21,081 bases of DNA. Origin: a virus. Under the pieces are notes generated by a model that did no database searches, had not been told where the DNA came from, and saw nothing but the letters and a program-made list of their open reading frames with translations. The DNA is taken from positions 1 through 21,081 of IMG/VR virus record IMGVR_UViG_3300047550_003367. The stretch is one strand, 5' to 3'. Shown piece by piece: positions 5,711-20,065 of the stretch; the first letter of the stretch is position 1; every line of letters begins with the position of its first letter. Both the position numbers and the translations under genes were made by a program.

Positions 5711-6432
5711 TGGAACATTTTTGTTTCAATGACCAGTTTGGAGAAAACTGGTTTTCTTTTTCAAAACTTTATTCTGAGATGGTAAAACATTTTCCAGATG
5801 GTAGTCATTTTATCGAAATTGGTTCTTGGAAAGGTCGATCTGCTACTTATTTGGCTGTGGAAATCATTAATTCACAAAAAAATATAAAATTTGATTGTAT
5901 TGACATCTGGGAAAACAGTCACTTTTACAGTGAAAAAATGGTGGGTCAAGGATATCCAACTTTTTCAGAAAATTTATATCAAACATTTTTAAACAATATA
6001 ACACCAGTATCACACATTATAAATCCTGTTCAAAGTGATTCTTCAGCCGCAGCAAAAACTTATGCAGACAATTCTGTAAATTTTATTTTTATTGATGGCG
6101 ATCATTCTTATGAAGGTATAAAAAGAGATTTAGAATGTTGGCTACCTAAAATAAAAGATGGTGGAATTATTGCTGGTCATGATTACCATTATGATCCAAT
6201 TAAAAGAGCTGTTAAAGAAATTTTTGGTATAAGTGATTATTCTGATCCTTGGGGTAATGGTTGCTTCATAGCAAAAGTTAATACAAACTATGAAAGAGTT
6301 TTTAAATTAAAACAACTCTTTGATCAGGGAAGATATTCCCCTGAAAGTCATGAAGAACTAGAGAATTTAAAAACTGATTATAAAAAAATGATTAATAGCA
6401 AAATTGAAAAATTTACTGGAGATGCAACGTGA
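5710..6432 (+). CDS. Class I SAM methyltransferase (Methyltransf_24-like)
   Basis: A 240-residue protein. Motif I is FIEIGSWKGRS (residues 34-44), followed by the acidic strand FDCIDIW. The family signature FIDGDHSYEG lies at about 127-136, and GGIIAGHDY at 151-159 carries likely metal or substrate residues. This order fits the Methyltransf_24 or cephalosporin-hydroxylase-like methyltransferases that often modify sugars. The ATG at 5710 shares a base with the regA stop and has AGAAGGA just upstream, so it is chosen over an upstream in-frame ATG. The gene is visibly richer in A and T, with many Lys, Ile and Asn codons, than regA, which suggests recent acquisition. It sits apart from the main tailoring cluster but could serve it. 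Confidence 0.82.
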   Translation: MEHFCFNDQFGENWFSFSKLYSEMVKHFPDGSHFIEIGSWKGRSATYLAVEIINSQKNIKFDCIDIWENSHFYSEKMVGQGYPTFSENLYQTFLNNITPVSHIINPVQSDSSAAAKTYADNSVNFIFIDGDHSYEGIKRDLECWLPKIKDGGIIAGHDYHYDPIKRAVKEIFGISDYSDPWGNGCFIAKVNTNYERVFKLKQLFDQGRYSPESHEELENLKTDYKKMINSKIEKFTGDAT

Positions 6433-6992
6433 TTTATTTAAATGTTTTTAAACTTCGTAATGATATTGAATTGCCAACGTATGGAACATCCCTTGCCAAC
6501 TGTTTTGATTTATCTTTTCAACCAACAAGTAATGTTGTGAAAGGATATGATCTTTATAATTCTCCTATTGATCGACCAATAAATGATCTTGAAGAAGTTT
6601 ATTTGCATCCTGGAGATCGTTTGTTAATTCCCACAGGTTTGATCTTTAAAATTGATCATCGGAAAACAATCGAAACATTTTCAGACATTTCTCGCACAGA
6701 ATTGCCTCTACAAAATCACAGCATTCGTTTACATCCTCGCTCTGGACTTTCGCTCAAAAAAGGATTAATTCTAGCAAATTGCGAAGGTATTGTTGACGTT
6801 GATTATCAAGAAGAAGTGTTTGTACTTTTGACAAACGTCTCAAAGATGCACGTCACAATTCGCAAAGGTGATCGTATTGCTCAAGGTGAAGTTGTATGTA
6901 ATGAGCCTTTTCATATCGCATTATTAAACACACGACCAGAAAAACATTCCGAAAGATCTGGTGGATTTGGTTCCACTGGTGTATCAAACTGA
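6429..6992 (+). CDS. dut: dUTPase (trimeric type)
   Basis: A 187-residue protein with the five motifs of trimeric dUTP pyrophosphatases. Motif 1 is GTSLANCFDLS (19-29), motif 2 HPRSGLSLKKG (102-112), motif 3 GIVDVDYQEEV (120-130) with the catalytic Asp and base-stacking Tyr, motif 4 KGDRIAQ (146-152), and motif 5 ERSGGFGSTG (175-184). It converts dUTP to dUMP, keeping uracil out of DNA and feeding dTMP synthesis. It is longer than usual, with additions at about 36-57 and 76-98 between motifs 1 and 2. The GTG start at 6429 has GGAG 7 bases upstream and overlaps the previous stop (GTGA). It works with the dCMP deaminase downstream. Confidence 0.92.
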   Translation: MIYLNVFKLRNDIELPTYGTSLANCFDLSFQPTSNVVKGYDLYNSPIDRPINDLEEVYLHPGDRLLIPTGLIFKIDHRKTIETFSDISRTELPLQNHSIRLHPRSGLSLKKGLILANCEGIVDVDYQEEVFVLLTNVSKMHVTIRKGDRIAQGEVVCNEPFHIALLNTRPEKHSERSGGFGSTGVSN

Positions 6993-7000
6993 TATAAATA
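6993..7000 (+). promoter_or_regulatory. T4-type late promoter for hsp20
   Basis: TATAAATA matches the T4 late promoter element exactly. It overlaps the stop region of dut. With T4 geometry (-13 to -6), transcription would start at about G7006, giving a 53-base leader for hsp20. In T4 this element is read by host RNA polymerase carrying gp55 and activated by gp33 and gp45, so hsp20 should be a late gene, unlike the nucleotide-metabolism genes around it. Confidence 0.75.
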
Positions 7001-7005
7001 GAAAT

Positions 7006-7058
7006 GGATGCCCATTTGGGGTCCATAACTATAAACTTGCTTAATAAGGAGTTACAAA
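7006..7058 (+). promoter_or_regulatory. hsp20 leader with ROSE-like RNA thermometer
   Basis: The predicted leader folds as two hairpins. The first starts at the predicted 5' end: GGAT (7006-7009) pairs with GTCC (7021-7024), G7010 bulges, and CCC (7011-7013) pairs with GGG (7018-7020). The second pairs AACTT (7034-7038) with GAGTT (7049-7053), bulges G7039, and pairs CTT (7040-7042) with AAG (7046-7048) around an AAT loop. All six bases of the Shine-Dalgarno AAGGAG (7046-7051) are then paired. The anti-Shine-Dalgarno contains TTGCT with a bulged G, matching the UYGCU signature of ROSE thermometers, which control bacterial small heat-shock genes. Seen: the pairing. Inferred: temperature control. 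Confidence 0.6.
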
Positions 7059-7502
7059 ATGACTAATATTACTACACTCGCATCCACATACGGACTCGAT
7101 CGCCTTCTACCAACAGCACTTGGTTTCGAGAATGCGTTCGCTGCTCTTGATAATGCGGCTCATCTACTTACAGCAACACAAACTGCATTTCCGCCAGTGA
7201 ACGTCATCAAGAAAGATGACTACAACTTTATTTTGGAATTAGCAGTTGCTGGCTACAAGCAAGATGAGATTGAAATCACTTCTGAGAGAAACTCTCTTAA
7301 AGTCACAGGCAAAAAAGCAGAAACAGACGAACGCAATTATCTTGTAAAGGGTATTGCTGGTCGTAAGTTCTCTCGCCAATTTGTTTTATCTGACACAGTT
7401 GTGGTTCGTGATGCGAATCTTGCTGATGGCATTCTTTCCATTGAATTGGAAAATGTCATTCCTGAAGAACAGAAACCTCGTAAGATTGAAATTAAAAAAT
7501 AA
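7059..7502 (+). CDS. hsp20: Small heat-shock protein Hsp20
   Basis: A 147-residue alpha-crystallin-type chaperone of the IbpA kind. A short N-terminal arm (residues 1-43) precedes the crystallin domain (about 44-133), which begins FPPVNVIKKDDY. The conserved strand is ADGILSIEL (122-130). The C-terminal IEI (143-145) fits the I-x-I anchor that docks between dimers. Such chaperones hold unfolding proteins in large oligomers without ATP. Hsp20 genes occur in several T4-like aquatic phages, where a role in virion assembly or in keeping infected cells alive has been suggested. It has its own late promoter and a leader that hides the Shine-Dalgarno. The stop overlaps the next ATG (TAATG). Confidence 0.93.
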   Translation: MTNITTLASTYGLDRLLPTALGFENAFAALDNAAHLLTATQTAFPPVNVIKKDDYNFILELAVAGYKQDEIEITSERNSLKVTGKKAETDERNYLVKGIAGRKFSRQFVLSDTVVVRDANLADGILSIELENVIPEEQKPRKIEIKK

Positions 7503-8460: not shown

Positions 8461-8517
8461 TTTCACAAGAGTTTTTTCTATTGCGTTTTTCTTGTAATAT
8501 GCTACAATTGCTGCATG
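8446..8517 (+). repeat. 72-bp promoter cassette, copy 1
   Basis: This block aligns without gaps to 8910-8981, with 57 of 72 bases identical. The first 20 bases, covering the end of the preceding gene (CTCGTAAGTTATTGA), are identical. It includes a T-run after a short CTC/GAG stem, a -35 and -10 pair and the ATG of the following gene. It resembles the mobile promoter plus stem-loop cassettes described for T4-type early regions, but the stem here is weak. Confidence 0.8.
8481..8508 (+). promoter_or_regulatory. Early sigma70-type promoter, leaderless, copy 1
   Basis: TTGCGT at 8481-8486, a 16-base spacer and TACAAT at 8503-8508 preceded by TGC (extended -10). The predicted transcription start, 7 bases past the -10, is A8515, which is the A of the next ATG. 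No Shine-Dalgarno lies between -10 and the ATG, so the message would be leaderless. It heads the run of small early genes from 8515 on. Confidence 0.65.
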
Positions 8518-8745
8518 ATACATGAAATTGAACGCTCAGCCGCAGCGTATAGGTCGGCTACAATCACCTCAATTAAAAGCCTGAAATTCGACGCAGTTAG
8601 ACTTGGGTTTGATTGGCCAACTGACCCAGACTATGACACAGCGCCACTGAGTGAATTATCAGCATTTCAATCTGAAGTGTTAGAATACATCATGGATAAT
8701 TGGGACAATTACACAGGTCCGTATCCTGCGGAGGACGACAAGTGA
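8515..8745 (+). CDS. Small acidic hypothetical protein, leaderless start
   Basis: A 76-residue acidic protein with no membrane segment. It ends DNYTGPYPAEDDK and contains several Tyr and Asp clusters (DWPTDPDYDT). The ATG at 8515 has no Shine-Dalgarno and coincides with the predicted transcription start. No other good start lies nearby, so translation from a leaderless mRNA is likely. It overlaps the next gene by 4 bases (GTGA). Position directly behind an early promoter suggests expression at once after infection, as for host-takeover or anti-defence proteins, but no family is recognised. Confidence 0.7.
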   Translation: MIHEIERSAAAYRSATITSIKSLKFDAVRLGFDWPTDPDYDTAPLSELSAFQSEVLEYIMDNWDNYTGPYPAEDDK

Positions 8746-8924
8746 GATTCGCACACTATATCGTGTCTGGGAATGACAAGTTTGGTGCTCGCCACACACT
8801 CTGGCATGTTGGAAATTACATGTACGAAATCGAGTGCCGCAGCACAGGCAACAAGATTCGCCTCTCTGACACCACTTTCGAACAGGCAAAACGTGTGTTC
8901 GAGAGCGTGCTCGTAAGTTATTGA
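8742..8924 (+). CDS. Small hypothetical protein, GTG start
   Basis: A 60-residue protein beginning MRFAHYIVSGNDKFG. The GTG at 8742 is chosen because GGAGG at 8730-8734 lies 7 bases upstream and it overlaps the previous stop by 4 bases. The pattern of alternating hydrophobic residues (HVGNYMYEIECRSTG) suggests a small beta-sheet protein, followed by a helix (TFEQAKRVFESVLVSY). Its last codons fall in the second copy of the 72-bp repeat, so the C-terminus LVSY is the same as that of the membrane protein at 8104. The function is unknown. Confidence 0.7.
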   Translation: MRFAHYIVSGNDKFGARHTLWHVGNYMYEIECRSTGNKIRLSDTTFEQAKRVFESVLVSY

Positions 8925-8981
8925 TTTCATTAGAGTTTTTACTATTGCCTTTTTCGGTGAAAACGCTATAATTGTCTTATG
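8910..8981 (+). repeat. 72-bp promoter cassette, copy 2
   Basis: The second copy of the 8446-8517 block. The 20 bases at its start are identical, the promoter region is less so. Here the stem is slightly better: CTC, a bulged G, then TAA pair with TTA-GAG (to 8935), followed by a T-run, which could work as a weak terminator for the upstream gene. Confidence 0.8.
8945..8972 (+). promoter_or_regulatory. Early sigma70-type promoter, leaderless, copy 2
   Basis: TTGCCT at 8945-8950, a 16-base spacer and a perfect TATAAT at 8967-8972. The predicted start is A8979, the A of the next ATG, exactly the same geometry as copy 1. There is no Shine-Dalgarno before the ATG. It should fire early using host RNA polymerase and read the run of small genes from 8979 on. 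Confidence 0.7.
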
Positions 8982-9245
8982 AAATATGAAAATGTTGTGA
9001 AAATTGGTGACGTCGTCAAGTCCCTTGACTTCGTTGGTGTTAATGACTGCTACATGGTCGGTCTCGTGACTGCCGTCCTCTCTGACGGCACGTTCCGCGC
9101 CAACACGATCAAGCGTGTGTGGCAGGGCAAGGTTGACAAGAGATTCCTGTCCGACACTTTCGTCGCTCCGCTCCCTGGTAATTCTTTCTTCGATGATCTC
9201 GCTGAAGCAAAGAATGCTGAGCCTCGCGTGCAGGTGGTTGCCTAA
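8979..9245 (+). CDS. Hypothetical protein, leaderless start
   Basis: An 88-residue protein beginning MKYENVVKIGDVVKSLDF. The strand-rich N-terminal half (VVKSLDFVG, CYMVGLVTAVLSDGTFRANT) looks like a small SH3-type or KOW-like barrel, inferred from hydrophobic spacing only. The ATG coincides with the predicted transcription start and has no Shine-Dalgarno. Its DNA is richer in G and C than neighbouring genes, with many GTC, CTC and GAC codons. The stop overlaps the next ATG (TAATG). No family is recognised. Confidence 0.7.
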   Translation: MKYENVVKIGDVVKSLDFVGVNDCYMVGLVTAVLSDGTFRANTIKRVWQGKVDKRFLSDTFVAPLPGNSFFDDLAEAKNAEPRVQVVA

Positions 9246-9475
9246 TGAAAACTCCATACTACGGAATGTTCTCGAAGCGTGGCAACGCGAAAGTCCAGAA
9301 GATCGTCGATGCTGCTCGCAAAGAGCGCATGCGGTGGCGTGATGTTGAACTCATGCTCTTGGAATTGTGCAAGGATAAAAAGTATCCTGAAGCGTGGGAC
9401 ACTGCGGTGCGTGATGCGGTCTACATCGAGTTGATGGAAACCAATGACTATGCTCTTTCTGGGAGGATTCTATAA
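9245..9475 (+). CDS. Small helical hypothetical protein
   Basis: A 76-residue, mostly helical basic protein (KVQKIVDAARKERMRWRDV, then a long helix ending SGRIL). It starts on the last base of the previous stop (TAATG) and its own stop overlaps the next ATG the same way, so it is read from the copy-2 early promoter. No known domain or membrane segment is seen. Confidence 0.7.
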   Translation: MKTPYYGMFSKRGNAKVQKIVDAARKERMRWRDVELMLLELCKDKKYPEAWDTAVRDAVYIELMETNDYALSGRIL

Positions 9476-9684
9476 TGCGTCTTGATCGTGGTCATGGCAG
9501 TCCGTATGATCGTGGTGCTGCCGATAGTTATTATCGTCGCGACTTTAATCCGCACTACTTCGTTGGTGACACTTATCGCTCGCAAGAAATCACTCTTGTC
9601 GTGATGACTGGCGATGAACTCGATGAGTATGCTCGTGGATACAAAGACAACGAAGCAGCGCAAAATTTCAAGGAGTGGGAGTGA
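9475..9684 (+). CDS. Conserved small phage protein (DRG-ADSYY type)
   Basis: A 69-residue protein with an N-terminal stretch rich in Arg, Gly and Tyr (YDRGAADSYYRRDFNPHYF) and an acidic C-terminus with TGDELDEYARGY. Small proteins with a DRGxADSYY-type N-terminus and an EL/EIxEYxxGY segment recur in many tailed phages and some bacteria, from memory. Their function is not known to me. GGAGG precedes the ATG, which overlaps the previous stop. Confidence 0.72.
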   Translation: MRLDRGHGSPYDRGAADSYYRRDFNPHYFVGDTYRSQEITLVVMTGDELDEYARGYKDNEAAQNFKEWE

Positions 9685-9685
9685 T

Positions 9686-9910
9686 ATGAAAACGCAAACT
9701 GAAACATTGTTGAGTGAAGCAATTGATTTGGTAAATGGTGTTGATCATGTTCTCGCGAACACGATGACACAGTATGATGTGAGCGCCAAAGATTGCTACA
9801 ATCTTGCCGAGAAACTTGAGCGTGCTTGTCATCTGCTCTTGGTGATTGGTGATCGCAAGACGCAGGAAGATTTAAATCGAATTCCGATTAACGAAGGAGT
9901 GCCGTTCTAA
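9686..9910 (+). CDS. Small helical hypothetical protein
   Basis: A 74-residue protein with two predicted helices (ETLLSEAIDLVNGVDHVLAN and CYNLAEKLERACHLLLVIG), resembling a small four-helix-bundle half or a dimeric helical hairpin. The ATG at 9686 follows a GGGAG site and begins 2 bases after the previous stop. An in-frame ATG at 9614 would overlap the previous gene by 71 bases and has no better site, so it is not used. No family is recognised. Confidence 0.7.
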   Translation: MKTQTETLLSEAIDLVNGVDHVLANTMTQYDVSAKDCYNLAEKLERACHLLLVIGDRKTQEDLNRIPINEGVPF

Positions 9911-10137
9911 TGGGATTTTTCAAGAATGTTGAGATTGATGTCATTGACATGTTTCACAGCGAAGGCATGAAGGAAACTGAGATTGCCACTTCGCTGGGAA
10001 TTTCTCTGACGCAGGTAAATGAAATTCTCGCAGCGTATGATCGCCGCGACGATGATGCTGACACTAATGAAATGGTCAGTTACGATGATCTTGAGTTTGA
10101 ACCAAATGATGCAGATTACAATTCGGAGCATTATTAA
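9910..10137 (+). CDS. Small helix-turn-helix protein, putative regulator
   Basis: A 75-residue protein. Residues about 10-43 (DVIDMFHSEGMKETEIATSLGIS and on to VNEILAAY) have the spacing of a helix-turn-helix unit like those in sigma region 4 or resolvase-type DNA-binding domains. A very acidic tail rich in Asp, Glu and Asn follows and ends YNSEHY. A basic HTH face plus an acidic tail would suit a DNA-binding protein that contacts another protein, for example host RNA polymerase, but this is inference. The ATG overlaps the previous stop by one base and an AAGGAG site precedes it. Confidence 0.68.
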   Translation: MGFFKNVEIDVIDMFHSEGMKETEIATSLGISLTQVNEILAAYDRRDDDADTNEMVSYDDLEFEPNDADYNSEHY

Positions 10138-10328
10138 TGAGCGCGAATCCAAATAACACCAAGCAAGCAGTAGAACATCTGCGTCAGTTACGCAAGATGG
10201 GTTATGCTGTTGTTGCATTCACACCTGAAGAATTGCGTGGTGCAGATCCCGATCATGTTGAGGATCGTCTCATTGAACTTGGTTGGGATGTGATTGACAA
10301 TCTTGCCACGGAGTCATACAATGAGTGA
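10137..10328 (+). CDS. Conserved small phage protein (AVVAFTPEEL type)
   Basis: A 63-residue acidic protein with the segment GYAVVAFTPEELRGADPDHVEDRLIELGWDVIDN, of which the AVVAFTPEEL and DRLIELGWDVI parts recur in small phage proteins, from memory. It is predicted as alpha/beta with no membrane segment. The start overlaps the previous stop (TAATG) and its 3' end overlaps the next gene by 8 bases. The function is unknown. Confidence 0.7.
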   Translation: MSANPNNTKQAVEHLRQLRKMGYAVVAFTPEELRGADPDHVEDRLIELGWDVIDNLATESYNE

Positions 10329-10434
10329 TCCATATGTTGCATGGGTTGTTGGTTGTCTTTGTGGTTTAGTTATGGGAATTCTTATTATGATTCCTGCAAA
10401 ACGAAAGGGAAGGTATTACTATGATGACAAATGA
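10321..10434 (+). CDS. 37-residue single-helix membrane protein
   Basis: A small gene with ATG at 10321 and TGA at 10432-10434. One hydrophobic helix (about residues 6-25, VAWVVGCLCGLVMGILIMIP) is followed by a basic and Tyr-rich tail (KRKGRYYYDDK), giving a predicted N-out, C-in topology. A GGAG-containing site (CACGGAG) lies just upstream. It overlaps both neighbours. Its length, single helix and basic tail resemble the other mini-membrane proteins in this block. The function is unknown. Confidence 0.6.
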   Translation: MSDPYVAWVVGCLCGLVMGILIMIPAKRKGRYYYDDK

Positions 10435-10645
10435 GTATCGTCGTTCTGTTCTTGCGCCAAGAGCAAGAGTTCCTTTCGATCCTAGTAACAAACAACACAT
10501 GCTTGATTTTGCTCGGTTTGTGAAGTATAATAGTTGGAGAGAAGGATGTTCATATTTTTTGGAAGATCCATACACTGACATCCCCTCGATGATTCGAGCC
10601 AAGATTGCTGATTACACTTTGTCTAAACTTGTGGAGAAAGTCTAA
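10421..10645 (+). CDS. Small hypothetical protein
   Basis: A 74-residue basic protein, with AVLAPRARVPFD-like N-terminus (RRSVLAPRARVPFDPSNKQH) and a helical remainder ending LSKLVEKV. It contains Trp and paired aromatic residues (CSYFLEDPYTD). An AAGG site precedes the ATGATG start; the second ATG at 10424 is an alternative. It overlaps the previous gene by 14 bases and its stop shares a base with the next ATG. No family is recognised. Confidence 0.65.
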   Translation: MMTNEYRRSVLAPRARVPFDPSNKQHMLDFARFVKYNSWREGCSYFLEDPYTDIPSMIRAKIADYTLSKLVEKV

Positions 10646-10806
10646 TGGAAACAATTATTTTGTTGATGTTTTTCTTGATTGTGTTCACGTCTGTTTCGTT
10701 TACATATATTTGGTATCAGATTCGACTGGCACAGAAAGATGTTCGGAAAGCCATCGATGCTTGTCGTGATGTAATTGTCTCTGCCAATACTGGAAGGTGG
10801 ATGTGA
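10645..10806 (+). CDS. 53-residue single-helix membrane protein
   Basis: ATG at 10645 overlaps the previous stop (TAATG) and is preceded by GGAG (10633-10636). The N-terminal helix (about residues 3-23, TIILLMFFLIVFTSVSFTYI) looks like a signal anchor. A basic amphipathic stretch follows (RLAQKDVRKAIDACRDVIV). The stop overlaps the next ATG (TGATG). It is one of three consecutive or near-consecutive mini-membrane proteins here. The function is unknown; phage proteins of this shape often act on the host envelope. Confidence 0.6.
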   Translation: METIILLMFFLIVFTSVSFTYIWYQIRLAQKDVRKAIDACRDVIVSANTGRWM

Positions 10807-10934
10807 TGAATGATTTGCTTGTAATTCTTTTGGTGTTGTTTGTTTTTAATACTGCAACTTTTGCATACTTGACTCACAAAGTTACTTCCTACTTGGATTG
10901 GAAGCGTCACTGGCGGGAGAGTCGCAATGTCTAA
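10806..10934 (+). CDS. 42-residue single-helix membrane protein
   Basis: ATG at 10806 shares a base with the previous stop; a GGTGG-like purine site (GGAAGGTGG) lies upstream. The helix (about residues 4-21, LLVILLVLFVFNTATFAY) is followed by a basic tail (DWKRHWRESRNV). It overlaps the next gene by 8 bases. The arrangement with the preceding gene suggests a pair of co-translated membrane peptides. The function is unknown. Confidence 0.58.
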   Translation: MNDLLVILLVLFVFNTATFAYLTHKVTSYLDWKRHWRESRNV

Positions 10935-11121
10935 TGGTGATTTCGAAGTAATGCCTTTGGGTACGATGGAAGAACTGCGCGTTCTTCGTCAATTTTCAAA
11001 TGATATGATTGACATTTCTCGTACTCTAGAAAATCCAGTTGAGAAATGGGAGAAGATGACTTTGTTAATTCGCGAATTTGAAAAGTTTTATGCGTATCAT
11101 ACAGAGAAGTATGTCCTATGA
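10927..11121 (+). CDS. Small hypothetical protein
   Basis: A 64-residue protein, mainly helical (MEELRVLRQFSNDMIDISR, then VEKWEKMTLLIREFEKFYAY). GGGAGAG lies 7-8 bases before the ATG at 10927. It overlaps the next start by 4 bases (ATGA). It is soluble by composition, with no signal or domain recognised. It belongs to the same run of coupled early genes. Confidence 0.68.
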   Translation: MSNGDFEVMPLGTMEELRVLRQFSNDMIDISRTLENPVEKWEKMTLLIREFEKFYAYHTEKYVL

Positions 11122-11438
11122 TGATTTATTGCGCTGCTCGGTTTAAGCCAAAGAAAAAGCGCAACGCAAGAGGTGTCGTGGCTCGGAAGTATTCTCGCTC
11201 AAGCGCAATCTTGGGTGTTGAGAAACTTCCGAGTCTTTCATATGGTCCACGTGTTGGCGCTGATACTGCTCGCTCATTGCAGTCACTTGACACCAATCTT
11301 GCATATACTGAAAAGCGTGAGAGTCTGAAGTATACTGGCACTCTTGTGAAAGGTATTGCAACGATGCATAAGTCGAATGCTGTGCCTGTGATTGACGAAG
11401 AGCAGATGAAAGATATATCGAGAATGCGTCGTGGGTAA
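11118..11438 (+). CDS. Conserved basic phage protein
   Basis: A 106-residue, strongly basic protein. The N-terminus is rich in Lys and Arg (FKPKKKRNARGVVARKYSR). The C-terminus contains LVKGIATMHKSNAVPVI and ends in SRMRRG. Proteins with a GIATMHKSNxVPV segment and a terminal MRR are common in tailed phages and in some phage-rich metagenomes, from memory; no function is established that I know of. The ATGATGA start overlaps the previous stop. The 3' end overlaps a zinc-ribbon mini-gene by 8 bases. Confidence 0.72.
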   Translation: MMIYCAARFKPKKKRNARGVVARKYSRSSAILGVEKLPSLSYGPRVGADTARSLQSLDTNLAYTEKRESLKYTGTLVKGIATMHKSNAVPVIDEEQMKDISRMRRG

Positions 11439-11571
11439 TCTTCTCTGTAAACTTGGATTTCATAAATGGGAGTCTATATATCGTAAGTCGAGATGCGAAT
11501 ACTATCTTCTTCCAATTCTTGTGTCAAAAACTTGCAAAAGATGTGGGAAGATCAAATATAAAGAGGAGTGA
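11431..11571 (+). CDS. Small zinc-ribbon-like protein (DUF1660-like)
   Basis: A 46-residue product from a GTG at 11431, beginning MGNLLCKLGFHKWESIY and carrying a second Cys pair near the end (CKRCGKIKYKEE). The LLCKLxxHKW start and the C-x2-C knuckle fit the DUF1660 family of small prophage and phage proteins, with Cys6, His11, Cys35 and Cys38 as possible zinc ligands. The ribosome binding site is weak, so the exact start is uncertain. It overlaps the previous gene by 8 bases and ends just before the next start. Confidence 0.6.
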   Translation: MGNLLCKLGFHKWESIYRKSRCEYYLLPILVSKTCKRCGKIKYKEE

Positions 11572-12696: not shown

Positions 12697-13323
12697 ATGC
12701 TCATTGAAACACAAATATTAGAAAATTTTTTTGATGATCCAGAATCTGTAAAAAATTTTGCCATTTCTTCTAAATATTATCCATGCAATTTTTATCAATC
12801 AACATCGATTTATTCTGGATATAGATGCACAATACAAGATGAAAAAATAGAAAGTGAAATCATTTCAAAGATAAAAAAAATATTAGATAAAGATAATATA
12901 AAATTAAGTTCATGCTTTCATTTAAATACGAATACTAGTATGCTTGGCTTCCCGCATCATGATAGTCAAGATCCAAGAAGTTTTGCTGCAGTCATTTATC
13001 TAAATGAAAATGCTCCCGTAAATACAGGAACAAGTATCTTTAAGAATAAATCCACAGATTATGTGATTGAAAACTATACACATAAAATGCAAATAGTCTA
13101 TGATGTTTCTTTACCACCAAATAACTCTATAAAGCAAAAATTTGCCAAGGAAATTTTTGAGTATAAACAAAGTTTGACATTAGAAACTAAATCCGAAAAC
13201 GTATTTAATAGAATTTTCTTATATTCTTCTAAAAAATATCATTCACCAAATTTATATTTTGGCAAAAACATCCATGATGGAAGACTTACAATTGCAATAC
13301 ATGGATCAATCTATGCAAACTAA
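12697..13323 (+). CDS. Fe(II)/2-oxoglutarate oxygenase-like protein (DUF6445-like)
   Basis: A 208-residue protein with signs of the double-stranded beta-helix oxygenases. FPHHDSQD (85-92) supplies an HxD motif (His87, Asp89), YHSP (181-184) a distal His, and GRLTIAIHG (195-203) an Arg suited to binding 2-oxoglutarate. The overall order resembles DUF6445 proteins, though similarity is not strong. These enzymes hydroxylate amino acids, sugars or small molecules. The ATG at 12697 is preferred, since an upstream ATG lies inside the previous gene. The DNA is markedly A/T-rich with A-runs, unlike the gene before it, which suggests separate origin. Its end overlaps the NodS-like gene by 11 bases. 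Confidence 0.62.
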   Translation: MLIETQILENFFDDPESVKNFAISSKYYPCNFYQSTSIYSGYRCTIQDEKIESEIISKIKKILDKDNIKLSSCFHLNTNTSMLGFPHHDSQDPRSFAAVIYLNENAPVNTGTSIFKNKSTDYVIENYTHKMQIVYDVSLPPNNSIKQKFAKEIFEYKQSLTLETKSENVFNRIFLYSSKKYHSPNLYFGKNIHDGRLTIAIHGSIYAN

Positions 13324-13789
13324 AGAAGAATTAGAACAGTGGTATAAAAACCCAGATCCGTGGGCATATACAACCACGCACGACGATCAATATCGAAAAG
13401 ATAAATTATTAAATATCATAACGAAGCGTTACATCCGCGCACTAGATATTGGTTGCGGCGAAGGATTTGTGACTCGTGATCTTCCAGCAGAAGATATACA
13501 TGGTATTGAGTTATCTGATCTAGCAGCGTCTAGACTGCCATGGAACGTGAGACGAGTTCATGCTCCTGAAGGTTTATATGATCTTGTGATTACAACAGGA
13601 ACTTTGTACGAACAGTATAATCATGAACAGATTGCACAATGGATAAAAAATTGTGCATCTCGTCATGTTTTGGTTGCTGGAATCAAAGATTGGCTAAAAC
13701 CATACACCTTCGGGCATGTTATCACTCATACAGAATTTCCATACAGACAATTTATTCAATCGGTGACTTTATATGAAGTTGGCACATAA
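13313..13789 (+). CDS. NodS-like SAM methyltransferase
   Basis: A 158-residue compact methyltransferase. A short DPWAY segment (15-19) precedes motif I, ALDIGCGEGFVTRDLP (43-58), followed by the acidic strand HGIELSD. The DPW-Y start, the GCGEGxxTRDLP form and the small size are features of NodS-type enzymes. In rhizobia, NodS N-methylates the amine that NodB uncovers on the chitin oligomer. The downstream gene is NodB-like and overlaps by 17 bases, so the pair suggests the same two-step chemistry. The start could be the ATG at 13313 or at 13301; neither has a strong ribosome site. The actual substrate is unknown. Confidence 0.75.
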   Translation: MQTKEELEQWYKNPDPWAYTTTHDDQYRKDKLLNIITKRYIRALDIGCGEGFVTRDLPAEDIHGIELSDLAASRLPWNVRRVHAPEGLYDLVITTGTLYEQYNHEQIAQWIKNCASRHVLVAGIKDWLKPYTFGHVITHTEFPYRQFIQSVTLYEVGT

Positions 13790-14294
13790 TATTGGTAATA
13801 TACACCATCCAAATTATAACACTCGTGAACAGATCTTGGCTTGTAATGAGCCGATAGGTTTTGATGGTATTTACAAGAACGTCTATTACAATCAAGATGT
13901 TCTTGCAGGTAAGTCGGGTATTATGTTCGTAATGGGTGACTTTGTTGGTGGTGATAATGCATTTGATCTCCCGAACGTCCCGCGACTCGAGCAATATTGT
14001 ACATACGAAGAAGTTTGGCAAATTTGCGATAAGTATGGATTTGAAATGGGATGGCATACTTGGTCTCATCGTGATCTAACTAAATTGAATAAAGACGAAA
14101 TTATGGAAGAAGTTACGCCACCGATGGGAATGAAGATGAAATACTTTGCATATCCTTACGGCACATTCAACGATCTTGTAATTGAATGCGTAAAGGAAGC
14201 AGGATACGAAAAAGCATATTCTGTGATTCAGGGAAGTCAGAATCCGCATGATGTAGATTATAACTATAAGATCTATCGCGACTACATTAGATGA
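13773..14294 (+). CDS. NodB-like polysaccharide deacetylase (CE4), possibly divergent
   Basis: A 173-residue protein of the carbohydrate esterase 4 fold. The zinc-binding motif HTWSH is at 95-99, followed by RDLTKLNKDEI. FAYPYG (125-130) fits the R/F-x-PYG motif and is followed by a helix and GYEKAYSV. The first motif, normally TFDDG, reads GFDGIYKN (29-36) with a single Asp, so either the catalytic base or a metal ligand is missing or shifted. CE4 enzymes remove N- or O-acetyl groups from sugars in peptidoglycan, chitin or capsule. It lacks a signal peptide, so it would act in the cytoplasm, as NodB does. It overlaps the methyltransferase by 17 bases and the next gene by 4. Confidence 0.75.
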   Translation: MKLAHNIGNIHHPNYNTREQILACNEPIGFDGIYKNVYYNQDVLAGKSGIMFVMGDFVGGDNAFDLPNVPRLEQYCTYEEVWQICDKYGFEMGWHTWSHRDLTKLNKDEIMEEVTPPMGMKMKYFAYPYGTFNDLVIECVKEAGYEKAYSVIQGSQNPHDVDYNYKIYRDYIR

Positions 14295-15007
14295 AAAAAT
14301 TGTACGAAGAACTCGGTGTCATTGTAATACCAAGCATTTTTTCATCTATAGAATGTCAAGAAATAAAACAACAGGCATATTCTGTAAAAGATGAGGATAT
14401 AACAAATGCAGGATATCCTAACGTCGCCAGCGAAACAAAGTACAATAAAAAATCATTAATTTTCTTCCCAGCGTTATGTAACGAATACTTGAATTCTATA
14501 AGAATTGATAGTAGAATGGTAGAGTTAGTTCGTGAGTTTGTTGGGGATGATGTTCGACAAATAAACAATCAAATTTATTTTCGAGAACAAGGCGATCTGG
14601 ATGAATTCGCTTGGCATCAAGATACAATTTTTAGAGAGCCTCATATATTTTCCGATGACGTTGAATCAGATTACTTTCAAACAATTATTGCTGTAGACGA
14701 TATCACTGAGGAAAACGGAGCAATAGAGTTTATAGAGGGCTCACATAAAAAAATACAACTTTCAAAACCAACTGACTTGCGCGCATTTGAACGTGGAGAT
14801 CTAAAAGGAAAAAAATATACTGCCAAAAAAGGTGACGTATTGATTTGGTCAGTTAAGATTATTCACGGTAGCGAGAAGAACACTTCTAGTTCTGATCGTA
14901 TGACATATATGAATGGATTTTGTAGAACAAAAGCAGCTAAAACATACCCACATTATTTAATTGGAGGAAAGGTCGTACCAAAAATCGATCCAAAAATGAT
15001 ACCATGA
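14291..15007 (+). CDS. Phytanoyl-CoA dioxygenase (PhyH)-family oxygenase
   Basis: A 238-residue Fe(II)/2-oxoglutarate oxygenase of the PhyH family. WHQDT (108-112) gives the HxD metal motif (His109, Asp111), IIHGSEKN gives the distal His192, and the following DRMTYMNGF gives Arg203 for the co-substrate. ENGAIEFIEGSHK (141-153) is a hallmark strand of this family. Relatives hydroxylate fatty acyl chains, amino acids or sugars such as in antibiotic and surface-glycan synthesis. It overlaps the deacetylase by 4 bases (ATGA) and the following glycosyltransferase also by 4, so the three are tightly coupled. Confidence 0.85.
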   Translation: MKKLYEELGVIVIPSIFSSIECQEIKQQAYSVKDEDITNAGYPNVASETKYNKKSLIFFPALCNEYLNSIRIDSRMVELVREFVGDDVRQINNQIYFREQGDLDEFAWHQDTIFREPHIFSDDVESDYFQTIIAVDDITEENGAIEFIEGSHKKIQLSKPTDLRAFERGDLKGKKYTAKKGDVLIWSVKIIHGSEKNTSSSDRMTYMNGFCRTKAAKTYPHYLIGGKVVPKIDPKMIP

Positions 15008-15630
15008 TAACTGTTGTAATATCATCTTACAGGTATGGGCATCTTGCCGCGCATTGCATTGAAACAATTTTATCTCAGTCTACAAAACCTGAGAAAATAA
15101 TGTTTGTTGATGATGGTGTTGGTGATTGTCGACATATTCCTAATTTGTATCCTCAAGTTGAATTCTATGAAAACCCAACAAATCTTGGAACTGTTCACAA
15201 TTTTCAGAACATGCTAGGAAAAGTCACTACTGAATATTGTATGTTTATTGGAGCAGATAATTGGCTTCGATCAGATGCGATTGAAATGTTTAGTAAAGTA
15301 ATTGACATTCAGCAGCCAGATATAGTAACATATGATATGATTCTCACAGGCGAAGTGAAAGAAACAAGAGTGAAACATCACCCTGACGAAATGTGGCGAC
15401 ATCAAGGCGATTACTATTGGAGAAAGGATCATAAGCATCATGGCTCAATGCTTTATCGCACATCCTTGGCTAAATCTGTTGGCGGCTATGCTAAATATGG
15501 AAACTTCCACCAAACTCTGGAAGATTTAGGTTTATGGGGAAGAATGATCGAGGCTGGCGCCAAAGTTGCTAATGTGAATCAAGCATTTTTGTACTATCGC
15601 CATCACAAGGAAAATAATAACAAATATTGA
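15004..15630 (+). CDS. Family 2 glycosyltransferase
   Basis: A 208-residue GT-A enzyme with the family 2 pattern: VVISSYRYG near the start, FVDDGVG (34-40), ENPTNLGTVHNFQN (56-69), and FIGADNW (81-87) at the position of the DxD metal motif, here with the form GADN. LEDLGLWGRMIEAG supplies the ED acidic pair typical of catalytic bases in GT2 proteins. It is near the minimum size for the fold and has no membrane segment, so it may act on a soluble or nucleotide-linked acceptor. It overlaps the PhyH gene by 4 bases. Confidence 0.85.
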   Translation: MITVVISSYRYGHLAAHCIETILSQSTKPEKIMFVDDGVGDCRHIPNLYPQVEFYENPTNLGTVHNFQNMLGKVTTEYCMFIGADNWLRSDAIEMFSKVIDIQQPDIVTYDMILTGEVKETRVKHHPDEMWRHQGDYYWRKDHKHHGSMLYRTSLAKSVGGYAKYGNFHQTLEDLGLWGRMIEAGAKVANVNQAFLYYRHHKENNNKY

Positions 15631-15636
15631 GGTGTT

Positions 15637-16368
15637 ATGTATAACTTGATTGATTTCCGTCAATACTTTATTGACAAATATTACAAACAAGAATGGATCA
15701 ATTCTGCAAAACTAAACTTTGCGAACGCTGAACCATTTCCTCATATTGTAATCGACAACTTTCTCCCAGAAGAAGTTATGGACGCAGTTTTAGAATCATA
15801 TGACTCTTATGATTCGAGTCAATGGTTTCAATTTCAAAATGAGAACGAATTAAAACTTGCTTCGCGGCAAGAGATAATGATCCCTCAATTGGTTCGAAAT
15901 ATACTTCAAGAACTCAATTCTGGATATGTTCTTGATTGGTTAGAACATCTAACTGGAGTGCCAGGCATAGTTGCAGACACCAGATTATATGGCGGTGGAA
16001 TGCATAAAATTCAAAGTGGTGGGAAACTCGCTATTCACCAAGACTTCAACGTAGAAAATAGAACGCGACTGTATCGCCAACTCAATTTGCTTCTTTATTT
16101 AAACAAAGATTGGAAAGAAGAGTATGGTGGGCATTTAGAACTTTGGAATAGAGACAAAACCGAATGTGTTTTTAAAGTCGCTCCGATTTTCAATCGTTGC
16201 ATAATCTTTAACACTAATACTGGATATTCATGGCATGGACACCCCCATCCATTAAACACTCCAAAGGAAATCTCCAGAAAAAGTTTGGCTCTGTATTACT
16301 ACAATGTTGGTGAGGAAGCGGCAATTTTGGCTTCTATGCACGCAAGAAGCACCGTCTTTAAATCCTAA
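15637..16368 (+). CDS. Prolyl-4-hydroxylase-like Fe(II)/2-oxoglutarate oxygenase
   Basis: A 243-residue oxygenase. It starts with a PFPHIVIDNFLP segment (33-44) typical of 2OG-Fe(II) oxygenases in this group. IHQDFN (133-138) gives the HxD motif, GYSWHGHPHPL (196-206) a distal His, and SRKSLALYYY (213-222) the co-substrate Arg. YGGHLELW is also characteristic. Bacterial and phage relatives hydroxylate prolines or unknown partners and often sit by glycosyltransferases. GAGGTG precedes the ATG at 15637. It ends the first part of the cluster, before a late promoter. Confidence 0.85.
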   Translation: MYNLIDFRQYFIDKYYKQEWINSAKLNFANAEPFPHIVIDNFLPEEVMDAVLESYDSYDSSQWFQFQNENELKLASRQEIMIPQLVRNILQELNSGYVLDWLEHLTGVPGIVADTRLYGGGMHKIQSGGKLAIHQDFNVENRTRLYRQLNLLLYLNKDWKEEYGGHLELWNRDKTECVFKVAPIFNRCIIFNTNTGYSWHGHPHPLNTPKEISRKSLALYYYNVGEEAAILASMHARSTVFKS

Positions 16369-16384
16369 ATATCAGATATCGTTT

Positions 16385-16392
16385 TATAAATA
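16385..16392 (+). promoter_or_regulatory. T4-type late promoter in the tailoring cluster
   Basis: An exact TATAAATA in the 51-base gap before the FkbM gene. The predicted start is about 16398. GAGG at 16411-16414 supplies the ribosome site for the ATG at 16420. It implies that the downstream tailoring genes (FkbM to sulfotransferase and beyond) are made late, with virion proteins. Confidence 0.72.
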
Positions 16393-16419
16393 AACTAACC
16401 TATACATATAGAGGTTGAG

Positions 16420-17271
16420 ATGAAAAATATATTACCTGATGTCAAAATCTACATCAATCGCGACGACACCAAATTCGCTCTATTTGAACAAGAAGAGGTA
16501 ATCTCTGACGTCATAAGAGTTGATGGATATTGGAATCCCAAACTTCTTGATGTAGTCGAAAGAATTTTAAGTAAATCTTTTCCAGGAAATGTCGTAGATG
16601 TTGGTGCTGGAATAGGATCGTTTACTGTTCCACTAGCATCGCGCTTTACTGATAAATTTGTTTTTCATGCATTTGAACCACTTAAAATTGTTTTTATGCA
16701 ATTGGCGACAAATACATTACTTAATAATCTTGCAACAGTAAAACTTTACAACTATCCTCTCTCAAATGAAAAAAGGAGAGTGGAATATGGTATTCTAGAT
16801 GTAAGGCATAGCACAAATCACGGATCATTTTCTTTTCTTGAGAGAATAAATGATTTGAGAGGCATCCCACAAACAGAAGAAAAAGATGTTTATGAATTTA
16901 CGACTTTAGATTATTTTTCTCTTAAGAATGTTAGATTGATCAAAATTTCTGGTCAAGGAATGGATAATGAAATTCTTCAAGGTGCAAAAGAAACTATTTT
17001 AAATAATGATCACCCACCTATTCTATTTGAGTTTTGGGATAATGATTGGTATCAAGAAGAAAAAGATAAAATTGCTAAATTTTTAGAAGAAATGGGTTAC
17101 ACATTTAATACTTATGTTGATAATTATCAACTTGCGTTTAAGAATGATGCAAAATTTGACTTTTTTATGTCTGATGAACCAACTGAGATTTCTGGTGAAT
17201 ACGTTATTTCTGAAAAAGAACATGATACTGATAAAACATTAGAAGATCAAAAAGTGTATTTACCAAAATAA
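16420..17271 (+). CDS. FkbM-family methyltransferase
   Basis: A 283-residue protein. Motif I is VVDVGAGIGSFT (58-69), followed by FHAFEPL (82-88), the TTLDYF strand (161-166) and LIKISGQGMDNEILQGA (173-189), which corresponds to the IKIDVEGxExxVLxGA segment of FkbM enzymes. Here the usual Asp after IKI is Ser, a variant that could affect binding. FkbM methyltransferases O-methylate sugars or polyketides. The acidic tail after about residue 250 is extra. It is the first gene behind the late promoter and is followed 1 base later by a glycosyltransferase. Confidence 0.85.
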   Translation: MKNILPDVKIYINRDDTKFALFEQEEVISDVIRVDGYWNPKLLDVVERILSKSFPGNVVDVGAGIGSFTVPLASRFTDKFVFHAFEPLKIVFMQLATNTLLNNLATVKLYNYPLSNEKRRVEYGILDVRHSTNHGSFSFLERINDLRGIPQTEEKDVYEFTTLDYFSLKNVRLIKISGQGMDNEILQGAKETILNNDHPPILFEFWDNDWYQEEKDKIAKFLEEMGYTFNTYVDNYQLAFKNDAKFDFFMSDEPTEISGEYVISEKEHDTDKTLEDQKVYLPK

Positions 17272-17272
17272 T

Positions 17273-18037
17273 ATGAATGTTTCTGTTATTACGCCAACCA
17301 CTGGCAATCCTTATCTTGCAGAATGCATTAAATCCGTTCGAGCCCAAACTTATAAAAACATCGAGCACATTGTCGTTGTTGATGGTGAGGAAAGATGGGG
17401 TGCAACTCAAGGAATTCTTTACGACGTGCAATTTCCGCAAGGCTCAGAACGTGGAGCAAATAGCAATGAACACGTTTGTATTTTGCCATATCCCACAGGC
17501 ATCAATCGCTACAACGGTCATCGCGTCTACGGTGCTGCAACTTATTTCGCAGATGGCGATTATCATATTTGGTTAGATGATGATAACATTCTTGAGCCGA
17601 ATCACATTGAGAGTTTAGTCAAACTCGTTCAAGAAAAAAATCTTCATTGGGCTTTCTCACTTCGAAAGATCATTGACAAAGACGGCAACGTTCTTTGTTT
17701 AGATGATTGTGAGAGTCTTGGTCTTTGGCCAAGCATTTTGCATCCTGAAGATTTCTTCGTTGATGTCAACTGTTACTTTGTAAAAAAGGAAATTGCAGTT
17801 GGTATGTCACCTGTGTGGTATCGCAAGTTTAGAGAACCTGGTCAGCCAGAGATTGATCGTGCAATTGCTGGAACTCTGATGGCAAAACAAAATAATCTAA
17901 AGTTTGACTGCACACGTGATCATACGGTAAAATATAGAGTCGGAAATACTGGTCTTTCTGTACAAGCAGAGTTTTTCCTTCAGGGAAACCAAAAGATGTT
18001 AGAAAGATATAATGGAGTTCTTCCATGGAAAATTTGA
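17273..18037 (+). CDS. Family 2 glycosyltransferase
   Basis: A 254-residue GT-A enzyme. It begins VSVITPTTGNPYLAECIKSV, with IVVVDGEE (33-40) and the metal motif LDDDN (101-105) in WLDDDNILEPNHI. A later EIDRA segment could supply the acidic base. Unlike the GT2 at 15004, the donor-site loop is longer and includes HRVYGAATYFA, so the two probably transfer different sugars. Codon use is less A/T-rich than in the next gene. Its 3' end overlaps the next gene by 13 bases. Confidence 0.87.
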   Translation: MNVSVITPTTGNPYLAECIKSVRAQTYKNIEHIVVVDGEERWGATQGILYDVQFPQGSERGANSNEHVCILPYPTGINRYNGHRVYGAATYFADGDYHIWLDDDNILEPNHIESLVKLVQEKNLHWAFSLRKIIDKDGNVLCLDDCESLGLWPSILHPEDFFVDVNCYFVKKEIAVGMSPVWYRKFREPGQPEIDRAIAGTLMAKQNNLKFDCTRDHTVKYRVGNTGLSVQAEFFLQGNQKMLERYNGVLPWKI

Positions 18038-18729
18038 TAAATTCTTTCCAAGAAAAGATAGAAAATTCAATTGACAGTGCAATCCAAAATTATAATTGGA
18101 ATGGAATATCAATTTTACCAGAAAAATTACAAAGTTTAAGAGGATACTCTCCAAAAGAAACAAGAGTCTTTCTTAATAATTTAATGGATGAAAATTCTAG
18201 ATATTTAGAAATTGGATTGCATCGGGGAGCATCATTTTTTTCTGCATTATATCTCAACAATCTTAAAACTGCAATTGGTATTGATAATTTTGGTGGACCT
18301 GTTTATGATGATTTATTGAAATATGGTTTATTAGATCTTTCAGAAGAATTTGATTTGAAGTATGGCATCGATTATGACGTCATATTTGATGATTGTTATA
18401 ATTTGAAAGAAAAGGAACAAAATAAATTAAAAAAATTGAAATTTAATGTTTACTATTATGATGGTCCACACAACAAAAATGATCATATAAAATCTTTAGT
18501 AAATTATGCGCAGTATATGGATGATGTTTTTATTTTTTTAGTCAATGATTGGTTTTATCCACCAGTCAGTGAGGGAACGAAAATTGGTATCGATAAAAGT
18601 GGAGTGACAGTTTTGAAAGAATGGATATTAGGTGAATCTGAAGAGCATAAAAGTGAAGAAATTTGGAAGAATGGATTGTATGTTTCTATAGTACAAAATA
18701 AAAAGAGTGATGACCACAATCTGATTTAA
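18025..18729 (+). CDS. Class I SAM methyltransferase-like protein
   Basis: A 234-residue protein. Motif I is YLEIGLHRGAS (60-70), then IGIDNFGGP (84-92), and the YYYDGPHNKNDH segment (143-154) corresponds to FIDGDHSYE of the Methyltransf_24 group to which the gene at 5710 also belongs. FLVNDWFYPP (171-180) follows where that family has GHDY. It could O-methylate a sugar or be an inactive relative, as DGPH differs from DGDH. The DNA is very A/T-rich, like the sulfotransferase after it, so the two may have arrived together. Confidence 0.75.
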   Translation: MENLINSFQEKIENSIDSAIQNYNWNGISILPEKLQSLRGYSPKETRVFLNNLMDENSRYLEIGLHRGASFFSALYLNNLKTAIGIDNFGGPVYDDLLKYGLLDLSEEFDLKYGIDYDVIFDDCYNLKEKEQNKLKKLKFNVYYYDGPHNKNDHIKSLVNYAQYMDDVFIFLVNDWFYPPVSEGTKIGIDKSGVTVLKEWILGESEEHKSEEIWKNGLYVSIVQNKKSDDHNLI

Positions 18730-18731
18730 AT

Positions 18732-19382
18732 ATGGTTAATTGCGAAAAACCGTTTTTAATTTATGCTTTACCAAGATCCAGAAGCACTGCGATTCTTCAA
18801 GCCTCGAAAAAACCTATCATCATTTATGAACCGTTCAATCCAAATATTCGCAATTCTTCAGAAGTATCATGGTATGAATTAAAAAACCAATTAAACAATA
18901 AAGATGCATCAATAAAAATTCTATGCAGTCATTTTAAAAAATTTCATAAAGCAAAGATTTGGTATGATCATGTTCAACGAGAAAAGCGATTTAAAATCTT
19001 TGTTGTTCAAAGAGACATAAGAGAAATTTGTCATAGTTATATGATTGCGCCGTTTGTTGGTTTTGAAAAACAATATGAGTCAAGAGAAAAAGATTTAAAG
19101 GGGAAGATAGAAATTCAGATTAATGAGATTGAATTTGAAGATTTATTAACGACAACATTTCAATCGTTTTTAGATTTTTTTCCAGAATACGGAACAGTTA
19201 TAAATTGGAAAAATCTTCCAGAAGATTTTTTTGATAAAACAAAAGTGAATATTCAAGAGCAATTCTCACAAACTAAATTAGACCTTGTAAAAAACTTAGA
19301 CTCTTGTTTATTGATCGTTGAAAAAATAGTCAAACAATTTGAACCGTTGATTGATGATAAGTTGTGTAAATTAAGAGAGTGA
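18732..19382 (+). CDS. PAPS-dependent sulfotransferase-like protein
   Basis: A 216-residue protein. YALPRSRST (11-19) has the form of the 5'-phosphosulfate loop and VVQRDIREICHS (91-102) the 3'-phosphate-binding strand with its Arg and Ser, the two signatures of P-loop sulfotransferases. Between them IYEPFNPN could hold the catalytic segment. Such enzymes move sulfate from PAPS to sugars, lipids or proteins; the phage has no PAPS-making genes in this window, so host PAPS would be used. The sequence is A/T-rich. It starts 2 bases after the methyltransferase stop and overlaps the next gene's extended start. Confidence 0.78.
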   Translation: MVNCEKPFLIYALPRSRSTAILQASKKPIIIYEPFNPNIRNSSEVSWYELKNQLNNKDASIKILCSHFKKFHKAKIWYDHVQREKRFKIFVVQRDIREICHSYMIAPFVGFEKQYESREKDLKGKIEIQINEIEFEDLLTTTFQSFLDFFPEYGTVINWKNLPEDFFDKTKVNIQEQFSQTKLDLVKNLDSCLLIVEKIVKQFEPLIDDKLCKLRE

Positions 19383-19387
19383 ACATT

Positions 19388-20065
19388 ATGAATCCTTGTA
19401 TTGCCTCAATTTTTATGAAAAATATTGATCAGAACACTGTTGCACTACAACAACAGGTTGTGAAAAAATTTAATAAATCAAACATCGCACATTATCCTGT
19501 ATTAACTGAAGCAAATCCTGGATACACGATGGATAAACTTGTTGAAATGCTTGAGAAGCGAGGGCATGATGCAATTATGTTCCTTGATATTGATTGTGTT
19601 CCAGTAAATGATGTTGCGCTTGATTACTTTTTTGAACAAGCATACGCAGGCAAAGTGATCGGTGATGCTCAACGCAGCAATCATATTCAAAATGATCAAC
19701 ATGTATTCTGTGCTCCACATAATGTAACTTTTACGATTAAGAATTATCGTAAATGTGGTAACCCATCATTCTTGCCTAACCATCGAGGTGATGTTGCAGA
19801 AGAGTTGACTTTTAGAGCAAGAGAGAATAATATATCAGTAGAGATTGTAATGCCATTGCGTTACGATGCTCCACCAATTCGTATGGATTGGGAACCTAAA
19901 GATCTTCCTCCATATTGGGATCTTGCTGATGGCATGCCAAAATATGGTATTGGCACGACATTTGGAAATGATAGTGGTGATTTGTTCTGGCACAATTATC
20001 AAATTTTTCATCCAGGACAACAAGAACGCTTCTGGAAGAAGTGTGAGGAACTATTAAATGGCTAA
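19388..20065 (+). CDS. GT-A fold glycosyltransferase-like protein
   Basis: A 225-residue protein with the metal motif FLDIDCVP (65-72), placed after a helix as in GT-A enzymes. Later segments are HVFCAPHNVTF, a GDVAEELTFRA helix that could supply the acidic base, and WHNYQIFHPGQQERFW with a His that could bind metal. It fits a glycosyltransferase with an unusual C-terminal half; it may also be a DxD-containing relative without transfer activity. The ATG at 19388 is preferred to the in-frame GTG at 19379 because the GAGAG site lies at a suitable distance. It is the last enzyme of the tailoring cluster. Confidence 0.66.
   Translation: MNPCIASIFMKNIDQNTVALQQQVVKKFNKSNIAHYPVLTEANPGYTMDKLVEMLEKRGHDAIMFLDIDCVPVNDVALDYFFEQAYAGKVIGDAQRSNHIQNDQHVFCAPHNVTFTIKNYRKCGNPSFLPNHRGDVAEELTFRARENNISVEIVMPLRYDAPPIRMDWEPKDLPPYWDLADGMPKYGIGTTFGNDSGDLFWHNYQIFHPGQQERFWKKCEELLNG

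Follow-up and report, generated by a model that had tools for sequence, protein, structure and literature searches.

The stretch of DNA analysed here, hereafter the window, is the whole of an IMG/VR virus record (IMGVR_UViG_3300047550_003367; 21,081 bases), and it carries, at positions 12697-20065, 11 consecutive plus-strand open reading frames (ORFs; genes a to k), most of which overlap or abut their neighbours. Our preferred reading, which we hold with about even confidence, is that these genes make up a phage locus of modular build for the synthesis and decoration of a glycan containing an amino sugar, with a virion protein as its likeliest acceptor. At its core is a cassette comprising a NodS-like methyltransferase (b), a NodB-fold deacetylase (c), an optional PhyH-family dioxygenase (d) and a GT2 glycosyltransferase (e), which recurs in other phages. 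An earlier note on this DNA had described ten adjacent genes; the coordinates stand, yet the count is 11, as the note's own list totals. Its broader proposal, that the genes constitute a sugar-tailoring pathway and not random cargo, is supported by the conservation of b-c-(d)-e and by the recurrence of genes h and k in the complete islands of T4-like relatives.

Scans of viral loci returned 57 loci with gene d as the query and 72 with an alignment of c (individual loci are given below with the prefix L), and conservation was counted over 53 distinct c proteins. In every one of these, b lies immediately upstream of c, the two reading frames usually overlapping, typically by 17 or 4 nucleotides (nt); adjacency kept in all distinct relatives indicates that the cluster is not a product of chance. 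Gene e is close to b-c in 46 of the 53. Gene d lies near c in 38, mostly in the space that separates c from e; exceptions are L052, where it follows e, and L056, L115 and L117, where it precedes b. Since twelve loci present b-c-e with no intervening d, the latter behaves as a clean optional module. Seven loci lack e: in L081, L111 and L056 the sequence ends soon after c, while in L114-L117, where it continues, a GT2-type gene is found just upstream of each locus' own b or d (judged by sequence in L116). The four cassette proteins also co-diverge (Mantel r 0.60-0.88, p 0.001, shared phage ancestry not corrected for). That related phages carry these genes singly and scattered, the outcome that the earlier note had named as fatal to its idea, is ruled out by this conserved arrangement. 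In two loci (L068, 10513-11136; L072, 6245-6889), the position that d usually has, directly after c, is taken up by a Methyltransf_24 gene or shared with one.

In the pathway that we propose, c would strip an amino sugar of its N-acetyl (or other N-acyl) group, b, whose translation is probably coupled to that of c, would methylate the freed amine, and e would transfer or extend the sugar, which d, where present, would hydroxylate. In the T4-like group, h and k would perform further glycosyl transfer, and the accessory enzymes, comprising oxygenases (a and f) and methyltransferases (g and i) and possibly a sulfotransferase (j), would supply exchangeable decoration, as in serotype loci. The glycan would be placed on a virion protein during particle assembly.

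A virion acceptor is favoured by four divergent carriers in which the neighbours of the cassette are terminase, head or tail genes. In L113, b-c-e lies upstream of terminase and capsid genes; L114 has b-c flanked by terminase on one side and minor head and portal genes on the other; and in L115, a d-b-c run separates the major head protein gene from the tape-measure gene. The fourth carrier, MW202801 (L117), is a 40-kb circular podovirus whose genes run in the order terminase, head-tail joining protein, capsid, radical-SAM gene, glycosyltransferase, PhyH, methyltransferase, NodB-like, glycosyltransferase and phage stabilization protein. Its radical SAM/SPASM protein is encoded at 10184-11248, directly upstream of the glycosyltransferase and the cassette. 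Elsewhere, the cassette is found beside a metallophosphoesterase gene (L017-L023) or near a tail-fibre gene (L073). Among 50,697 phage records, no direct DNA relative of the cluster was found, and MW202801 was the only record with protein relatives of c and d. Across 84,980 species genomes, scanned with fixed peptide patterns that distant bacterial relatives would escape, two contigs matched, both short pieces of metagenome-assembled genomes with genes mostly matching the L017-L023 viral group, and plasmids gave one weak cassette match. The cassette is found in several unrelated tailed-phage backgrounds and, within the reach of these scans, is almost confined to viruses.

The neighbourhoods of some carriers also bear on the origin of the sugar. 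The earlier note supposed that host precursors would be used, but this is not a general rule, since sugar-nucleotide genes accompany the cassette in some carriers: a GDP-mannose 4,6-dehydratase-like gene in L070 (413.5 bits, cut-off 415) and dTDP-glucose-4,6-dehydratase-like genes in L115 and L116. A sugar-nucleotide dehydratase/epimerase gene is likewise found nearby in L073. In L047, an example from the L032-L049 group, a gene resembling 3'-phosphoadenosine-5'-phosphosulfate (PAPS) reductase (1091-2329; phrog_2302 E 3.7e-75) lies near ParB-like genes.

Several points weigh against the proposed virion glycan pathway. In the T4-like group, to which the window belongs, the cassette sits beside gp43, among replication and not virion genes, and a late-promoter-like octamer upstream of g is absent from most relatives. 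In L032-L049 (group B), the cassette adjoins RecA-like, exonuclease, annealing-protein and ParB genes, a recombination context. Phage glycosyltransferases can act on host surface glycans as well. On the chemical side, the MT1 motif of c has the form GFDG in place of a tandem Asp, with a single Asp and with Gly at the second position in 53 of 53 proteins, and its activity could therefore be lost or altered. The profile link between b and NodS is modest and no proof of N-methylation (15.2 bits for NF041650, against a family cut-off of 300). More generally, the substrate, step order and acceptor are our deductions from genes alone, and the chemistry is read from family resemblance.

The placement in T4-like genomes speaks for an alternative to which we give roughly one chance in four, namely that the same enzymes act on the host O-antigen or capsule, altering it so as to block competing phages or the re-adsorption of progeny. 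Such a role was proposed for the glycosyltransferases of related T4-like pelagimyophages (PMC7029224), and a locus in the replication neighbourhood may be expressed ahead of the late genes. However, the four divergent carriers described above hold the cassette within runs of head and tail genes, and no signal peptide, flippase, polymerase or ligase was obvious in the translations of a to k, which were inspected by eye and not with a signal-peptide or membrane predictor. Gene context thus ranks the virion as the likeliest acceptor and the host surface second. Both had been listed by the earlier note as likely targets alongside hypermodified DNA, and the last of these is disfavoured by the hydroxymethylase search described below and by placement in capsid operons.

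We next turn to c, whose fold, at least, is clear. The fold model is confident (173 residues; mean predicted local distance difference test score, pLDDT, 92.9) and matches IcaB (Z 16.2), PgaB (Z 14.1, residues 1-173) and also PplD over its full length, residues 1-173 of c aligning with residues 51-293 of PgaB and 40-265 of IcaB. Profile and structure agree on a NodB fold, the top Foldseek and VIA matches all being CE4 enzymes, in line with the deacetylase that the earlier note had recognised, albeit with a changed MT1. The protein models as a circularly permuted IcaB/PgaB-type member of this family. NodB2 (IcaB/PgaB) deacetylases carry their MT5 His at the N terminus (PMC10967932), and c has an invariant H5 there, within an LxH motif. 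The metal-binding histidines of the MT2 motif, H(S/T)xxH, are retained as H95 and H99, and these, together with H5, D31 and G32, are invariant in all 53 proteins.

The replaced MT1 Asp raises the alternative, unlikely in our estimation, that c is a dead CE4 partner of b, and that the substrate methylated by b is not a freed amine. CE4 pseudoenzymes do exist, and two of them (7bkf and 6hpa) are among the structural matches of c. Yet the invariant positions include those matching the acid (H5), the remaining MT1 Asp (D31) and both metal histidines (H95 and H99), which points to a working site. Furthermore, at the aligned MT1 site, PdaA and its relative 2j13 have FDN instead of FDDG, and PdaA is an active deacetylase that acts on N-acetylmuramic acid (PMC5855634). 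A departure from the canonical MT1 in an active enzyme makes deacetylation by c plausible, as far as can be read from sequence.

For the other cassette enzymes, a family profile of b has NodS (3ofj, E 4.4e-5) as its best Protein Data Bank (PDB) match, the methyltransferase signal being clearer than with the single sequence, and the best PDB profile match of d is EctD (E 1.6e-15). The HxD...H iron triad of d and its 2-oxoglutarate (2OG)-binding Arg (H109, D111, H192 and R203) are invariant in 38 of 38 proteins. As to what these oxygenases do, a metabolic role was proposed for PhyH and 2OG-Fe(II) oxygenases in cyanophages (PMC3037559), whereby 2-oxoglutarate turnover would adjust nitrogen signalling or energy in the host; the closeness to sugar genes would then be incidental. 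We regard this as highly improbable here: it does not account for the joint occurrence of d and b-c-e across unrelated phages, and the accessory oxygenases are located inside the sugar island. Moreover, neither psbA nor CpeT was found in a 173-kb T4-like relative (which encodes the T4 head protein gp23), and its host may therefore not be cyanobacterial; for the window virus a cyanobacterial host is possible.

T4-like phages glycosylate their DNA, and the thymidylate-synthase family is the usual source of base hydroxymethylases. We see the slimmest chance of all for a cluster that hypermodifies phage DNA by adding a sugar to a hydroxymethylated base and then decorating it, even though DNA hypermodification by glycosyltransferases that viruses encode has been described (Pyle 2024, as cited in PMC12619734), since a thymidylate-synthase-family protein (PF00303) was not found in 13 of 14 carrier records, possibly incomplete but including the 173-kb relative, since the glycosyltransferases of the cluster are GT2/GT-A and those acting on T4 DNA are GT-B, and since a capsid operon is an ill-suited place for such a pathway. 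Of the window's own virus, a 21-kb genome fragment is all that is available, which bears on this search. L076, the one record of the 14 in which such a protein is encoded, has a dCMP-deaminase-like gene beside the thymidylate-synthase-family gene (about 5404-6439; PF00303 E 1.1e-30).

Within the T4-like group, the cassette is part of a larger island. Genes h and k are constant in relatives with a complete island (67-80% and 73-88% identical, respectively); the presence of a, d, f, g, i and j varies from one relative to another. L002 has an additional Asp/Asn hydroxylase-like gene, and the protein encoded in the j slot of L003 matches both Methyltransf_24 and rhamnosyl O-methyltransferase. Proteins in the j slot of relatives such as L003 are also weakly similar (26-29%) to a Methyltransf_24 protein encoded elsewhere in the window (5659-6432, E 2.5e-21), where it is flanked by regA and the dUTPase gene. 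Replication proteins, gp44 among them, share 92-96% identity between the window and its relatives, against mostly 66-84% for cassette proteins, which indicates that the island changes faster than its left flank. Accessory genes swapped around a fixed frame are the pattern of a serotype-like locus. The genes and two promoter-like sites are listed in Table 1.

Table 1. Genes of the cluster and promoter-like octamers in the window (SAM, S-adenosylmethionine; P4H, prolyl-4-hydroxylase)
Feature	Coordinates	Strand	Assignment and role	Evidence or context
Gene a	12697..13323	+	DUF6445, probable 2OG-Fe(II) oxygenase fold; accessory	PF20043 E 1.9e-12; phrog_1644 E 1.8e-25
Gene b	13259..13789	+	NodS-like class I SAM methyltransferase; cassette core	weak Methyltransf_23/25 and NodS matches
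Gene c	13773..14294	+	NodB/CE4 deacetylase, circularly permuted IcaB/PgaB type, MT1 = GFDG; cassette core	PF01522 (Polysacc_deac_1) E 3.8e-10, above cut-off
Gene d	14291..15007	+	PhyH-family dioxygenase, HxD...H...R intact; optional module	PF05721 E 1.3e-23, above cut-off
Gene e	15004..15630	+	GT2 (GT-A) glycosyltransferase; cassette core	PF00535 (Glycos_transf_2) E 1.8e-12
Gene f	15637..16368	+	2OG-Fe(II) oxygenase, P4H-like; accessory	PF13640 (2OG-FeII_Oxy_3) E 3.2e-17; PDB relatives prolyl-4-hydroxylase
Gene g	16420..17271	+	FkbM-type methyltransferase; accessory, position shifts	PF05050 E 1.1e-8 (Pfam); TIGR01444 E 2.4e-17 (NCBIfam)
Gene h	17273..18037	+	GT2 glycosyltransferase; constant in T4-like carriers	PF00535 E 1.4e-13
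Gene i	18025..18729	+	Probable class I methyltransferase, weak assignment; accessory	phrog_1458 (unknown function) E 9e-17; Methyltransf_24 E 0.13
Gene j	18732..19382	+	Sulfotransferase-like by motif only, candidate; accessory	motifs in translation
Gene k	19379..20065	+	Probable GT-A glycosyltransferase; constant in T4-like carriers	Glyco_tranf_2_3 E 0.019; DID motif
TATAAATA	16385..16392	+	T4-type late-promoter-like octamer	28 nt upstream of gene g
TATAAATA	6993-7000		Late-promoter-like octamer	immediately upstream of Hsp20 gene

The enzyme families named in the earlier note fared unequally. All three 2OG-Fe(II)/PhyH-type oxygenases have profile support, a being tied to the 2OG fold through phrog_1644, which also matches f; among relatives, a is present only in L010, L011 and L013, and f is also carried by L010 and L011. 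Of the three methyltransferases, b (through weak profiles that sharpen with the family alignment) and g are upheld, the latter having relatives that are 40-46% identical and that lie upstream of b in L006-L009, while i is weak. Similarly, e and h stand as GT-A enzymes of the GT2 family, and the weaker of the three, k, has a 37% match in Marine virus AG-345-E08.

The sulfotransferase did not gain such support. PAPS-site-like motifs can be picked out by eye in j (ALPRSRSTAIL and VQRDIREICHSYM), but no match was obtained in Pfam at E<=10 or in the PDB at E<=1, tblastn gave no phage relatives, and the fold model (pLDDT 34.5) is unusable for assigning a fold. No similarity was found between j and an SGST-motif protein of L012, and exact peptide patterns, a limited test, returned no relatives of i or j in viral contigs. 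In a different phage (L100), a Sulfotransfer_3 protein (6702-7304, E 3.5e-9) is encoded a few kb upstream of the cassette.

The surroundings of the cluster in the window are those of a T4-like phage, with gp45, gp44, gp62, regA, dUTPase, Hsp20, dCMP deaminase and gp43 as markers (several of these names were read off translations), and the cluster lies between the replication block and gp43. The window's gp44 is 57-61% identical to those of marine cyanophages and single-cell marine viruses. The octamer TATAAATA occurs just twice in the window, both copies being intergenic and close upstream of a gene; the copy before g is well positioned but has no counterpart in most relatives, and conservation of late promoters at this locus was thus rejected. 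Beyond the cluster, the replication block encodes a glycosyltransferase-like protein (972-1811; Anp1 E 0.0015; phrog_1574 E 5e-62), a small protein at 3637-3981 starts with a weakly twin-arginine signal-like segment (Pfam TAT_signal E 0.26), and positions 8500-11500 hold many small ORFs with function-less annotation and a raised GC content (0.48 around 9-10 kb).

In rhizobial Nod-factor synthesis, a deacetylase is followed by an N-methyltransferase, together with a GT2 chain maker, and the phage cassette resembles this NodB-NodS chemistry in combining a NodB-fold deacetylase, a NodS-like methyltransferase and a GT2 enzyme. It differs in that c is of the permuted IcaB/PgaB type and not NodB1, identities are low, no acyltransferase was seen among the phage-borne genes, and the product is deduced. 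With the poly-beta-1,6-N-acetylglucosamine deacetylases IcaB, PgaB and BpsB (NodB2), c shares a full-length structural match (Z 12.5-16), the N-terminal LxH His and the MT2 His pair; unlike them, it is a phage-encoded protein of 173 residues with no signal peptide seen by eye, GFDG instead of FDDG, and a methyltransferase neighbour.

Among phage systems, mycobacteriophage glycosyltransferases act on capsid and tail-tube proteins (Freeman 2023, as cited in PMC12619734), which is akin to the four carriers with the cassette among head and tail genes; as far as that citing account goes, our carriers differ in being known from genes alone, in their larger decorating set and in being unrelated phages. 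The lipopolysaccharide-like clusters of cyanophages P-SSM2, S-SM2 and S-SSM7 (PMC3037559) and the glycosyltransferase-rich regions of pelagimyophages (PMC7029224) likewise present clustered glycan genes in variable regions of T4-like aquatic phages, but comprise other gene families at another position. In the open-access literature we found no description of a coupled b-c pair, of its spread through unrelated phages or of the fixed MT1 change, and no paper combining PhyH, polysaccharide deacetylase and FkbM genes in a phage. The enzyme families and phage glycan loci as such are already known; what appears to be new is the coupling of b with c, the occurrence of this pair in unrelated phages and the invariant Gly in MT1.

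More tentatively, and at well under even confidence, we suggest that a virus-specific b-c unit with a non-canonical metal motif is spreading among unrelated tailed phages, where it would place an N-methylated, decorated glycan on capsids and swappable genes would generate serotype-like variants. Phage glycan pathways are mostly known as single glycosyltransferases, and what is found here is a conserved multi-enzyme cassette in unrelated aquatic phages. Its enzymes are compact, the deacetylase being notable for a metal motif that is out of the ordinary and may go with altered chemistry, and, should the cassette coat the virion, it would allow modular variation of phage surfaces to be put to the test.

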